Source: Coriobacteriia bacterium (GTDB lineage Bacteria; Actinomycetota; Coriobacteriia; Anaerosomatales; PALSA-660). Taken from it: a DNA stretch of 36,206 bases. Location of the stretch: positions 1 through 36,206 of the forward strand of contig JANYLP010000074.1 of the NCBI GenBank assembly GCA_025361445.1, given 5' to 3'. Shown here piece by piece: positions 31,668 through 36,206 of the stretch. The position numbers and the translations under genes are program-made. Position 1 is the stretch's first letter; every line of letters starts with the position of its first letter. The notes below the pieces were generated by a model, which did no database searches, had not been told where the DNA came from, and saw nothing but the letters and a program-made list of their open reading frames with translations.

Positions 31668-32720
31668 GTGCCGAACACCACGGTTGCGTTGATCGGATAC
31701 GGGTACTGGGGGCCCAACCTGCTCCGCAACTACATGGAGCTGGCCGGCGCCGAGGTCAAGTGGGTCTGCGACTCGCGCCCCGAGCGTCTCGAGAAGGCCA
31801 TCGCGCGATACCCGTCGATCGTGAGCACTACAGATCTGAAAGTCGTGCTCGGCGATCCCGATGTCGACGCCATTTTGATCGCGACCCCAATCGGAACGCA
31901 CTACGCGGTCGCGATGGAGGCGCTTCACGCCGGGAAGCACGTCTTCGTCGAGAAGCCGATGGCGATGACCGTCGGCGAGTGTGACGAGATGTGTCGCGCG
32001 GCGGAAGAGCGTGGCCTCACCCTGATGGTGGGGCACACCTTCGTCTACAGCCCGCCGGTCCGACTCGTGAAGAGCATCATCGATTCGGGTGAGTTGGGCG
32101 ATGTGCGGTTCATCACCTGCTCGCGCGTGAACCTGGGACTCCACTCCAAGGAGGTCAGCGTCGTGTGGGACCTTGCCCCGCACGATCTGTCGATACTGGC
32201 GTACTGGCTCGGGGAGACTCCCCTGTCCGTCCAGGCGATGGGCCGCAGCTGCATCATTGATGGAATCCCGGACGTCGCGTTCCTGAACGTACGCTACGCG
32301 TCGGGGATCATTGCGGAACTCGAGGTGTCGTGGCTCTCGCCCGTGAAGCTGCGCCGGACAGTGATCGTCGGCAGCAAGAAGATGCTCATGTATGACGACA
32401 CGGAGAGTGTGGAGAAGGTCAAGATCTTCGACCAGGGCGTGGACTACAAGGATCCGGAGACGTTCGGCGAGTTCCAGCTCTCTTACCGCACGGGCGGCAT
32501 CTACAGCCCCCGCGTCGAGAACACGGAGCCGTTGTTCGTGGAGGCGGCGCACTTCATCGACTGCGTCGCGAACGGCACGACACCCCTGACCGATGGCGCG
32601 TCCGGCCGACTTGTCGTGGCCGCGCTCGAGGCGGCTCAGGCATCCCTGGACGCGGGTGCGAAGAACCCGGACGAGCGTCGCGGCCGCGTGGAGCGGCGCC
32701 GGCGGGCTCGCGAGGAGTAG
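31668..32720 (+). CDS. Gfo/Idh/MocA-family sugar dehydrogenase
   Basis: NAD(P)-dependent oxidoreductase of 350 residues. The Rossmann motif GYGYWGPNLLRN is at about residues 10-21, followed by VDAILIATPIGTHYAVAMEALHA-type sequence, the signature EKPMAMTVGECDEM, and VWDLAPHDLSILAYWLG, which supplies the catalytic-site Asp/His. The C-terminal beta-sheet domain ends LEAAQASLDAG, then an Arg-rich tail RRGRVERRRRAREE. GYWGPNLLRN is the subgroup found in nucleotide-sugar pathways, often paired with WbpD/QdtC-type acetyltransferases, and such a gene lies at 35.8 kb. GTG start with ATGGGGGGAA upstream. Substrate inferred as an activated sugar, not proven. Confidence 0.9.
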   Translation: MPNTTVALIGYGYWGPNLLRNYMELAGAEVKWVCDSRPERLEKAIARYPSIVSTTDLKVVLGDPDVDAILIATPIGTHYAVAMEALHAGKHVFVEKPMAMTVGECDEMCRAAEERGLTLMVGHTFVYSPPVRLVKSIIDSGELGDVRFITCSRVNLGLHSKEVSVVWDLAPHDLSILAYWLGETPLSVQAMGRSCIIDGIPDVAFLNVRYASGIIAELEVSWLSPVKLRRTVIVGSKKMLMYDDTESVEKVKIFDQGVDYKDPETFGEFQLSYRTGGIYSPRVENTEPLFVEAAHFIDCVANGTTPLTDGASGRLVVAALEAAQASLDAGAKNPDERRGRVERRRRAREE

Positions 32721-32736
32721 TCGAGCACACACGTTG

Positions 32737-32775
32737 AAAGGCCCGGGTCCGCGCTTCTCGCGGGCCCGGGCCTTT
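32737..32775. terminator. Bidirectional intrinsic terminator
   Basis: AAAGGCCCGGG extends to a 17-bp stem with CGCGGGCCCGGGCCTTT, including one G-U pair, around a 5-nt loop CTTCT. It is flanked by A/T-rich ends (GTTGAAAG, CCTTTGTATT) and lies between two convergent genes (stops at 32720 and 32790). Confidence 0.88.
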
Positions 32776-32789
32776 GTATTCCTGCGGGA

Positions 32790-35435
32790 TTAGCGAACCT
32801 GGATCTGAAGCGTCGAGCTGGATACGCGCACGTGGGTCGCCTTGGTCGCGAGGACGATCCGGTAGGAGTGGGCACCACGCCTCGAGAACCCGACCCTGGC
32901 TGCGTAGCGACCCGCTGAGCTCGTCCTCACGCGCCGGACCGTTCTCCACGCGCCGCGAACCGACCGCTGCAGCAGTACGGTGACCTTGCTCGCAGCGCCG
33001 ACGACCCCGCTCACGACCACGTGGCTCGTCCTGCGGACGATCCTCTTCGAGGAGCGGATCGTCACGCGTGGCTGCACGGTGATGGTGACGGTGGCCGAGA
33101 CGGCACCCGTCTCGACAAGCACCGTGCGGTACTGAGTGCTGACGAGCGGGGTCACGGCGAGCTGAGCAAGGCCGCTCGCGTCGGTCGTCAGTGTTGCCAC
33201 TGTCGACCAGACGCCCGTGCCAGAGTTGAACTTCTCGACCCGCACGATCGTCGCGTAGCCGGGGTTCACAGCGATCGTGAGGGTGCCGGACGCGCCGTAG
33301 TCGAGTGTCGAGGGCGAGCCCTGCAGGTTCGGAGTCGCGATCACGGACGGTACTACCGGCGCGGGCGGGACTGCGGGCTCGACAGGCGGTACTACCGGCG
33401 CGGGCGGGACTACGGGCTCGACCGGCGGTACTACCGGCGCGGGCGGGACTACGGGCTCGACCGGCGGGGCCGTGAGCTCGACCAGATCCATGAGCTGCAG
33501 CGTGCCTCCCGCATTGCGGTACTCGACGCGAACCGTGTTGATGCCGGTGTTGGGAAGCGTGATCTGCGCGGTAGCTGCGTATGCGATCCAGGGACCGAAG
33601 ACGCCGGTGCCGGGATCGATCCGCATCTCGGTCGCCCCGGTGATCGCGGAGGCGATCGAGATGTCAGCGGAGGCGACCTGGTCGGCGCCGGCCGCGGCGA
33701 TCATGGTGCCGGCCGGGACCGGGACGGTGATCGTGAAGCTCGCGGACGTGCGAGCCTCGATGTTGCCGGCCGCGTCGACGGACCAGAACTGGATAGTGTG
33801 CGCGCCGGGGGCCGTGACGTTGATGGTCGTACCAGCGGTCTGCACTCCACCGTCAAGCGTGAAGTAGGTGGCGGTCACGCCGACGTTGTCGGTTGCCGAC
33901 AGCTTGATGATGGCTGAGCTGAGGTAGGTGGCCTTGGCATCGGAGTTCGTGACGGGAGCGGTGGTGTCCGCGGGCGGAAGAACCGGGGCGATCTTCAGAA
34001 GGACGATTCCGTCGCGCGGCTGCAGGGTGACGGAGGTGACGTCCGTGCCGTCGTTGACGCTGGGGGCCTGGGTTCCCTTGATCTTGCGGTAGGTCCCACC
34101 GAGCTGGACGGTGACTGCGCTGGCGGTCGGGTTCACGAGGGCGATGCCGCTGGTGAAGTCACGACGCCACGCGTTCCCGGCCTTGGCCATCGGACCCGTC
34201 GGCTGGCCCAGATACCCGCGGCCCGCTCCGGCGTTGTCGTACTCGTCGAACCAATCAAGCCCGTTCCATGAGTGCTCCCAGGAGGAACGTGCGTAGGAGA
34301 AGGTGCCGTCACTCATGAGGGCGGAGGTAAGACCAAACCGCATCAGCTGGTAGTCGTTGGCGGCGCCGTAGGTCTGGATGAGCGTCAGGTTCGGCAAGGC
34401 GGACTTGCTAGCCCACTCAGCGTAGGACGCGTGTGGAGCGGCGTACGGGCCGACGAACACGATATTCCATGTAGCCAGAGCGATGTTCGTGTAGGGAAAC
34501 TCCTCGAACGCGTTGCCGTTGAGGTTGAAGTTGCGCATGTTGCCGTTGCCGATGAGCGCCCTGGTGCCAGCCATGGCCCGCATCGAGTTGCCGTAGGCGA
34601 TGGCGCCGGCGTTCCAAGCGCTGTTGAGCGCCGCGTAGCCGTCGGTGACCGGCGTGTTCGTGCGCAGAGCATCGATCGAACGGGCCCTCGACGGGTCGAC
34701 CATCCAGGACACGTTGGACGAGAGGACATCGATGAAGAGGCCGTCCCACGGCGCGGCGTTGAGGATGCCCTGCCCGCGACGCGTGTTCCAGTCACCCCAT
34801 GTCTCGAGTCCGTAGCCGACATCCCGCTTCGGGCAGTTGCTCGAGAGGTCCATCGTGATTGTGCCGGGCCAGGCGGTGACGACGGACGCGATGCGCGTCC
34901 CAGCCGCGTGGGTTGCGGGGGGGTTGACCGGGCCGCGAGCTGTGACGGTCAGCACCGATCCGTTGATCGCATCGATGTGCACGAGCTCGTGGTACACGAG
35001 AGCCATCTCGCCGACGGCGAACTTGGTCGGGTCGGCGACGGTGATCGATGTGGTCGAGGCGTTGATCGCGGCAGTGAGCGTGGAGCCGACCTGGGTCAGC
35101 ATCCAGTCGGTCGACACAGTGCGAAGCTCGACGTTCACCGAGTGGTTGTAGTCCGACAGGTAGTAGTTGATATCGGTCGCATCCGTTGTGCCCAGGATGA
35201 TGATGCTCGGATTCGCTGCGCGCAGGGCCGGGATGCGATTCGCGTCGTGGTTCTGCAGCGCAATCCAATCGGCACGTGCAAGACTCGCAGCGGACTGCGT
35301 GCTCGCATCGGCCCACCACACGGCGAGGCGCGGGAACGACGGCACCGTGGCGGCCTTGGCAACCAGCGGTCCGGACACGATGAGGATCAGCGACGCGATC
35401 GCCGCGAACATGACGAAAGCCGACTTCGCCATCAT
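32790..35435 (-). CDS. Secreted GHL15-like putative glycoside hydrolase with Ig-like and Pro-rich repeat domains
   Basis: About 881-residue secreted protein. Signal MMAKSAFVMFAAIASLILIV with cleavage near AKA. Residues about 30-490 resemble hypothetical glycosyl hydrolase family GHL15: PRLAVWWADAS, IIILGTTDATDIN, DGLFIDVLSSN, NGNAFEEFPYTNIALATW and a closing RDGIVLLKI. A small beta insert (ITVADPTKFAVGEMALVYH, then VLTVTARGPVNPP) interrupts the barrel. Later come a TDNVGVTATYFTLDGG / HTIQFWSVDAAGNIE Ig-like domain, a PVEPVVPPAPVVP linker, and two C-terminal Ig-like domains, the last very Arg/Ser-rich. Starts at GTG 35474 or TTG 35531 are possible. Its leader carries a c-di-GMP riboswitch. The glycan target is unknown. 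Confidence 0.82.
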   Translation of the reverse strand: MMAKSAFVMFAAIASLILIVSGPLVAKAATVPSFPRLAVWWADASTQSAASLARADWIALQNHDANRIPALRAANPSIIILGTTDATDINYYLSDYNHSVNVELRTVSTDWMLTQVGSTLTAAINASTTSITVADPTKFAVGEMALVYHELVHIDAINGSVLTVTARGPVNPPATHAAGTRIASVVTAWPGTITMDLSSNCPKRDVGYGLETWGDWNTRRGQGILNAAPWDGLFIDVLSSNVSWMVDPSRARSIDALRTNTPVTDGYAALNSAWNAGAIAYGNSMRAMAGTRALIGNGNMRNFNLNGNAFEEFPYTNIALATWNIVFVGPYAAPHASYAEWASKSALPNLTLIQTYGAANDYQLMRFGLTSALMSDGTFSYARSSWEHSWNGLDWFDEYDNAGAGRGYLGQPTGPMAKAGNAWRRDFTSGIALVNPTASAVTVQLGGTYRKIKGTQAPSVNDGTDVTSVTLQPRDGIVLLKIAPVLPPADTTAPVTNSDAKATYLSSAIIKLSATDNVGVTATYFTLDGGVQTAGTTINVTAPGAHTIQFWSVDAAGNIEARTSASFTITVPVPAGTMIAAAGADQVASADISIASAITGATEMRIDPGTGVFGPWIAYAATAQITLPNTGINTVRVEYRNAGGTLQLMDLVELTAPPVEPVVPPAPVVPPVEPVVPPAPVVPPVEPAVPPAPVVPSVIATPNLQGSPSTLDYGASGTLTIAVNPGYATIVRVEKFNSGTGVWSTVATLTTDASGLAQLAVTPLVSTQYRTVLVETGAVSATVTITVQPRVTIRSSKRIVRRTSHVVVSGVVGAASKVTVLLQRSVRGAWRTVRRVRTSSAGRYAARVGFSRRGAHSYRIVLATKATHVRVSSSTLQIQVR
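33349..33465. repeat. Three tandem 39-bp repeats encoding a PVEPVVPPAPVVP linker
   Basis: Three head-to-tail 39-bp units (33349-33387, 33388-33426, 33427-33465), nearly identical, encode 13-residue Pro/Val/Glu units in the linker of the GHL15-like protein. Units 2 and 3 are identical; unit 1 differs at two positions (GCGGG and ACA). Such repeats may change copy number by slippage. Confidence 0.93.
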
Positions 35436-35506
35436 TCCCGGCTTGTCGGTGTGTGCGGTGGTGGTGTGGTACACGGTGCTCGCCTCGCAGGCTCTACGAG
35501 ACGCAG

Positions 35507-35552
35507 CGGACCCGATCTCCTCTGCTAACAAGCCGAGAGGGAATCGGGTCCG
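35507..35552 (-). promoter_or_regulatory. Expression-platform hairpin downstream of c-di-GMP riboswitch
   Basis: On the transcribed strand CGGACCCGAT pairs perfectly with ATCGGGTCCG, and inside it CCTCT pairs with AGAGG around a 12-nt loop. It lies 17 nt after the aptamer and 70 nt before the chosen start. There is no U-tract, so it could be a Rho-linked or pause structure, or act on translation, and not a standard intrinsic terminator. Confidence 0.55.
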
Positions 35553-35569
35553 AGTTCAGAGCCCGCTTT

Positions 35570-35662
35570 CCGACGGCAACCCGGCTGTCATGGGGAGTCC
35601 AGAAGACTCCCGTTAGACCCGTGGCTTTGCGAGGTCGACTTTCGCCGACTGTGCCTTTGTCG
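35570..35662 (-). ncRNA. Cyclic di-GMP-I (GEMM-I) riboswitch
   Basis: The minus-strand leader of the GHL15-like gene matches the GEMM-I aptamer. ACAAAGGCACA is followed by a 6-bp helix, GTCGGC-GAAA-GTCGAC, with a GNRA tetraloop. The conserved core CGCAAAGCCACGGG and CTAA come next, with a P3 helix GGGAGTC/GACTCCC, then the tetraloop receptor and ligand-contact strand ATGACAGCCGGGTTGCC. These are the hallmark blocks of the class I c-di-GMP aptamer. It points towards the secreted glycoside hydrolase gene, making that gene its likely target. Confidence 0.92.
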
Positions 35663-35718
35663 CGGTGAGGATCGCCGCTGCGTCGATTTTCAAAGTCAGA
35701 AGGTCTATCGGAACGCGA

Positions 35719-35747
35719 GACCGCCTGCTTTAGCGCCGCAGGCGGTC
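35719..35747. terminator. Hairpin between acetyltransferase and riboswitch-controlled gene
   Basis: GACCGCCTGC and GCAGGCGGTC form a perfect 10-bp stem with a 9-nt loop. It lies 46 nt after the acetyltransferase stop (minus strand) and could end that transcript, with only a weak T-run following. It could also insulate the riboswitch promoter. Confidence 0.5.
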
Positions 35748-35792: not shown

Positions 35793-36206
35793 CTAGCGTT
35801 CGCCCACGTCACCGACCACTCGGGCAGGGTTGCCCGTGACGATCGCGCGTGCGGGCACGTCGCGCGTCACGACGCTGCCGGCTCCCACCATTGCGCGCTC
35901 CCCGATCATCAAGCCGGGGAGGATCGTCGCGTTGGCTCCGATGGACGCGCCGGAATCCACGCGGGTGGTGGCCACATCGTGCTCGTAGACCTTGCTGCGC
36001 GGGAAGGGATCGTTGGTGAAAGTCGCGTTCGGGCCGATGAACACATCGTCGCCGATCCGCAGCCCGTCCCACAGTTGCACGCCTGACTTCACGGTCACCC
36101 GATCACCAACGACGACGTCGTTCTCGATGAAGACGTGATCGCAGATGTTGCAGTCCGCGCCCAGGCGCGCGCCCGCGAGCACGTGAGTGAACGCCCATAC
36201 CCGCGT
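35793..36206 (-). CDS. Left-handed beta-helix sugar acetyltransferase (WbpD/QdtC type), partial (5' end outside window)
   Basis: Hexapeptide-repeat acyltransferase, with 137 residues visible and the first codons beyond the window edge. The visible start [20 protein letters not shown] continues into [20 protein letters not shown], then [20 protein letters not shown] and [10 protein letters not shown]. Further blocks are [20 protein letters not shown], then [20 protein letters not shown]. This is the pattern of UDP-sugar or dTDP-sugar N-acetyltransferases, which use acetyl-CoA to acetylate an amino sugar. The catalytic histidine of the family lies near the ICDHVF segment. The Gfo/Idh dehydrogenase at 31.7 kb would be a fitting partner in nucleotide-sugar synthesis. 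The exact sugar is unknown. Confidence 0.88.

Follow-up and report, generated by a model that had tools for sequence, protein, structure and literature searches.

Control of secreted surface enzymes by c-di-GMP riboswitches is already known from C. difficile, where such a riboswitch acts on the secreted zinc metalloprotease zmpI/PPEP-1 (CD2830) (PMC6366702). In the actinobacterium Rubrobacter, the sigma factor WhiG is under the c-di-GMP-binding anti-sigma factor RsiG and drives type IV pili from WhiG-type promoters (TAAA / GCCGATAA); that paper (PMC8325347) nowhere uses the term riboswitch. With regard to glycoside hydrolases of the GHL type, families other than GHL1 were stated to be uncharacterised in 2017 (PMC5765458), and no characterised GHL15 enzyme was found in the literature searched.

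The window analysed here (36,206 nucleotides) is the whole of one contig, C73, of the 1.57 Mb, 115-contig genome of a Coriobacteriia bacterium. The sequence-only reading had placed a c-di-GMP-I riboswitch at 35507-35662. The full regulatory unit turned out to be larger, spanning about 35472-35732 on the minus strand, and includes outside the stretch first noted a promoter (35706-35732), an upstream switching strand (35675-35684), a Shine-Dalgarno sequence (SD; 35481-35486) and the start codon (35472-35474). Our main reading, to which we give a probability of somewhat under 60%, is that an exported GHL15 hydrolase, encoded by a lone gene on a sigma28/WhiG-type transcript, is under translational control by a c-di-GMP-I riboswitch, with expression ON at high c-di-GMP. 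The features, in the order of transcription, are as follows.

35728-35732, minus strand: -35 element TAAAG of a sigma28 (FliA/WhiG)-type promoter, by pattern match
35706-35712, minus strand: -10 element TCCGATA of the same promoter, by pattern match
35675-35684, minus strand: strand S (GACGCAGCGG), upstream switching strand with 10 Watson-Crick pairs to S'; covaries
35667-35670, minus strand: strand A (CCUC), candidate anti-SD adjoining P1, strong in relatives but weak in the window itself
35572-35665, minus strand: c-di-GMP-I (GEMM-I) riboswitch aptamer, scoring 70.5 bits with RF01051 (gathering score 35) and, in cmscan, 60.9 bits with RF03167 (cut-off 59)
35558-35566, minus strand: o5 (GCGGGCUCU), 5' arm of the outer platform stem; o5:o3 covaries across families
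35508-35551, minus strand: inner platform hairpin, -27.9 kcal/mol, not followed by a U-run
35500-35509, minus strand: strand S' (CCGCUGCGUC), partner of S or, in the window, of the SD region
35487-35495, minus strand: o3 (AGAGCCUGC), 3' arm of the outer platform stem; o5:o3 covaries
35481-35486, minus strand: Shine-Dalgarno GAGGCG, by sequence; kept together with the GTG start in G001
35478-35507, minus strand: local SD-hiding hairpin of the window's minimum-energy fold, -17.6 kcal/mol
32790-35474, minus strand: GHL15 protein of 894 aa, secreted, with a signal-peptide-like N-terminus and an OmpL47-type domain; begins at GTG
32734-32775, minus strand: terminator-like hairpin after the GHL15 stop codon, -32.4 kcal/mol, which parts the gene from a convergent dehydrogenase gene

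The GEMM-I aptamer proposed from the sequence was confirmed by the Infernal covariance model. The RF01051 match was the only one in the 1.57 Mb genome, and a scan of the window against Rfam returned this single RNA, on the minus strand. Filing under the sister model RF03167 (c-di-GMP-I-GGC) was dropped despite a score above the cut-off; at the diagnostic GCAAAG column the window has A where the RF03167 consensus has G, and the aptamer is therefore treated as ordinary c-di-GMP-I. P1, P2 and P3 with a GNRA loop were recognised in the alignment (..AAAGGCA.., GAAA loop, ..CGCAAAGCC.., ..UUGCCG..; positions assigned by eye). In the same alignment, the ligand-contact positions, which we take to be G20, A47 and C92 in Vc2 numbering, hold G, A and C. 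The fold, the score and these bases are those of the c-di-GMP-I riboswitch RF01051; unlike in that class as described, a conserved upstream strand S pairs with the platform here, and the aptamer is combined with a nested two-stem platform, three covarying helices and a sigma28-type promoter. As G20A is a change studied for cGAMP binding (PMC6274999), the G at position 20 argues for c-di-GMP rather than cGAMP as the probable ligand. The window genome encodes 11 GGDEF domains. Two aptamers of another relative in the same genus (G002; L066 and L075) read ACAAGAGCAAACC and so have A at the G20 position, which is the change associated with binding of cGAMP. Downstream of them are an S8 peptidase gene and a short open frame that is truncated where the contig stops.

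The gene downstream encodes, as proposed, a secreted GHL15 protein: the PF14885 profile scored 52.2 bits against a cut-off of 27, and the expected Ig-like part was identified as one OmpL47-type domain (NF047446, 55.1 bits against a cut-off of 40). The catalytic part was modelled with AlphaFold2 (pLDDT 88) as a TIM barrel in which conserved acidic residues lie where strands end, in agreement with PF14885; these are D249 and E324, of which E324 is invariant and D249 near-invariant among 18 homologues. The fold is shared with GH168 endo-fucanases, the best solved structures in Foldseek (E 4e-12), and more weakly with the PelA hydrolase domain (5tcb; E 1e-5). GHL15 has only 10-14% identity to the GH168 structures and no sequence match to a solved enzyme, as a PDB sequence search with the GHL15 alignment returned weak phage tail protein matches only. 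An exopolysaccharide substrate would fit the modelled likeness to GH168 and PelA. In two relatives, FemAB, glycosyltransferase or DUF4012 genes are found close to the GHL15 copies. The earlier suggestion of a link to surface glycans thus stays plausible on account of the structural likeness and these neighbours. A second GHL15 gene in the same-genus Coriobacteriia MAG G001 (L127:5562-7640) is preceded by neither a sigma28-type promoter match nor RF01051 and adjoins DUF4012, FemAB, radical SAM and glycosyltransferase genes.

By its sequence surroundings, the GHL15 gene is alone on its transcript. The sequence-only reading had suggested that adjacent nucleotide-sugar genes may build the glycan; control of these genes by the riboswitch did not hold. 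The dehydrogenase gene (31668-32720, plus strand; a GFO/IDH/MocA oxidoreductase) is convergent to the GHL15 gene and lies past the terminator-like hairpin, and the hexapeptide acetyltransferase gene (35793-36206) lies upstream of the sigma28-type promoter. Because of strand, hairpin and promoter position, both are neighbours and not targets, neither being co-transcribed, and co-operonic nucleotide-sugar genes were dropped from the account.

To compare the leader across the lineage, the window was combined with 65 loci taken from the 59 of 100 relatives in which RF01051 aptamers were found (one to three per genome), giving a set of 66 aptamers. The window promoter, TAAAG-N15-TCCGATA, has 11 of 12 matches to the sigma28 pattern TAAA(G) - about 15-16 - GCCGATA. 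The exact pattern TAAAG-N16-CCGATA occurs just twice in the whole 1.57 Mb genome, once at this leader, and the reversed control pattern nowhere. At least 10 of 12 positions (10-12 matches) were scored in 52 of the 66 leaders, compared with 21 of 1320 shuffles; the module pattern is TAAAG-N15-GCCGATA, which in most cases precedes the aptamer by about 36-50 nt and keeps an about constant distance among the scoring leaders. As in Rubrobacter with its type IV pili, the window genome encodes a FliA/WhiG sigma factor (284.6 bits, above the cut-off) and PilT, and it gave no match to flagellin. RsiG was not found: a search of the window genome with the motif E(X)3S(X)2R(X)3[Q/H](X)3D as a DNA pattern yielded one match, equal to the control count, in a doubtful reading frame. 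A perfect inverted repeat of 10 bp at 35713-35742 (GACCGCCTGC...GCAGGCGGTC) encloses the -35 element in its loop; it has no counterpart in G001 and may terminate transcription of the acetyltransferase gene upstream. In many loci of families f12 and f5 (e.g., L054, L070 and L083), the sigma28-type promoter is preceded by a palindrome, in some cases by two, resembling TGTGA-N6-TCACA (CRP/GlxR-type); none was seen in the window.

The nested hairpin proposed to follow the aptamer was recovered as the inner hairpin, enclosed by o5 and o3. Three helices recurred in the leader set: S:S', between S and the stretch after the inner hairpin; o5:o3, the outer stem; and A:A', between the anti-SD and the SD/start region. 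S:S' consists of 10 perfect pairs in the window, a run reached in 1 of 2000 shuffles. When own and swapped partners were compared in 52 loci, z was 7.1 for S:S', 10.4 for o5:o3 and 8.0 for A:A'. With one locus per family, median z across 12 families was 3.3, 4.8 and 3.8, respectively, compared with 0 to 1.3 for upstream control strands. Judged by these comparisons, the three helices covary across 12 families and the control pairings do not. S:S' crosses o5:o3 and A:A', so these are alternatives or form a pseudoknot. Because the same promoter is found in 52 of 66 leaders and the three helices covary across 12 families, the promoter, the sensor and the RNA strands able to cover or uncover the SD are read as a lineage-wide control module, mostly before secreted enzymes. 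Tandem duplication of the whole module is seen at L033 (G005), where a pair of GEMM-I aptamers lies about 1 kb apart and each has its own HExxH gene behind it.

Folding placed the SD in a helix in the minimum-energy folds of the loci looked at, in the window by a local 13-pair hairpin of S' with the SD; the window's own A:A' helix is weak. In truncated RNA ending at S', the S:S' probability was 0.78 in the window when P1 was free and 0.81 when it was forced, with means of 0.40 and 0.31 over the loci, and S:S' was lost in the full-length RNA, so that it is best read as a co-transcriptional intermediate. Without pseudoknots, the conformer with S:S' and P1 lay about 14-26 kcal/mol above the minimum in the five loci examined. 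This exceeds what ligand binding alone provides, and a kinetic or pseudoknotted mechanism must therefore be assumed.

Translational control by hiding of the SD is, we infer, the best supported mode. The leader would be transcribed from the sigma28/WhiG-type promoter, and S would pair with S' and keep the SD region open. At a later stage the SD would become hidden; in most relatives this would be the work of strand A, the anti-SD that adjoins and overlaps P1, and in the window mainly of the local hairpin using S'. Termination of transcription, with the inner hairpin as terminator and the aptamer switching an antiterminator, could account for UUUU-UUUUU after this hairpin in a few f12 relatives (G042, G051), but the window and most other relatives lack a U-run there and the helices come together at the SD and the start codon, which makes this mode very unlikely. 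We give still less credit to the notion that the sensor is a genuine c-di-GMP sensor by descent with GHL15 as a chance or non-regulated neighbour. GHL15 is indeed not the usual cargo of the riboswitch, but it is found directly behind it in three genomes of two families, and the GTG start and SD are kept in G001.

The sign of control is somewhat more likely ON than OFF at high c-di-GMP. Outside family f12, the anti-SD shares the CCCC of P1 in most leaders; P1 and the anti-SD thus compete for the same bases in most homologues, and the bound aptamer therefore most likely leaves the SD open and expression ON. Forcing P1 lowered A:A' in 18 loci and raised it in 8, which also favours ON. The same module may instead work with the opposite sign, bound c-di-GMP stabilising a P1 stacked on the SD-hiding helices and turning translation OFF. 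This we consider unlikely, though far from negligible. It agrees with the SD still being hidden with forced P1 in many loci, with the OFF-like layout of four genomes of the same order (G030, G008, G012, G036), in which the SD lies within the 3' strand of P1, and with S:S' of the truncated RNA, which fell with forced P1 in 12 loci and rose in 4; it is opposed by the need of most anti-SDs outside f12 for the CCCC of P1, by which P1 competes with hiding of the SD. Also against ON, mean SD accessibility modelled by equilibrium folding hardly moved, from 0.34 to 0.37, when P1 was forced and was 0.00 both ways in the window. Under the preferred reading, with expression ON at high c-di-GMP, the exported enzyme would then trim or remodel surface polysaccharide, the presumed substrate.

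Downstream of 38 loci lies a secreted protein of about 165-245 aa with an HExWHxIDW motif, and five more downstream proteins align to this family with H-E-H invariant; the members are those at L038 and 42 further loci among L033-L094, with a GRIDWGExxP-like tail. The family gave no sequence match in Pfam, NCBIfam or the PDB and is apparently undescribed so far; its C-terminal domain has a high-confidence model with weak likeness to minigluzincins. By gene order, this small secreted HExxH protein is the usual cargo of the riboswitch in the order; it was sought and not found in the window genome, where GHL15 takes its place. Other cargos are GH26, cellulase-like and pectate-lyase-like proteins, the latter with CWB2, and S8 peptidases. 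Four GHL15 genes above the cut-off were found in 71 genomes, and three of them, in G000, G001 and G053 (the last of another family), lie directly behind the riboswitch; GHL15 homologues outside the class had no riboswitch within the flanks fetched. The proposed control of GHL15 by c-di-GMP is accordingly lineage-specific and no rule for the order. L046, L050, L056 and L057 show another, OFF-like arrangement: a 75-nt aptamer with the SD inside the 3' strand of P1 precedes a secreted protein, which is GH26 by Pfam at L046 and L057 and looks similar at L050.

As for zmpI/PPEP-1, a c-di-GMP riboswitch here precedes a secreted surface-modifying enzyme, and the usual cargo in the order is likewise a small secreted HExxH protein; unlike there, the window gene encodes GHL15 and no protease, and the HExxH family is minigluzincin-like by model only. 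The sensor class is known, and the combination of promoter, sensor, platform and cargo appears to be new: a partial literature search found no paper with c-di-GMP riboswitch and glycoside hydrolase as joint phrases, and none with riboswitch, c-di-GMP and Coriobacteriia. Tentatively, and with the odds rather against it as a whole, the module may form a double c-di-GMP gate in one order of the Coriobacteriia. Synthesis of the leader would depend on a sigma factor of the WhiG type, which an anti-sigma factor loaded with c-di-GMP may hold, and translation on the riboswitch as a co-transcriptional, three-helix strand-exchange platform gating a secreted surface-remodelling enzyme, be it the HExxH protein, GHL15, GH26, a pectate-lyase-like protein or an S8 peptidase.

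The findings make available from the Coriobacteriia a well-conserved riboswitch platform with natural compensatory changes. They also place GHL15 and the family of small secreted HExxH proteins under a common signal, c-di-GMP, and link both to a sigma factor of the motility type, so that the substrates of both become testable as surface glycan or adhesin.
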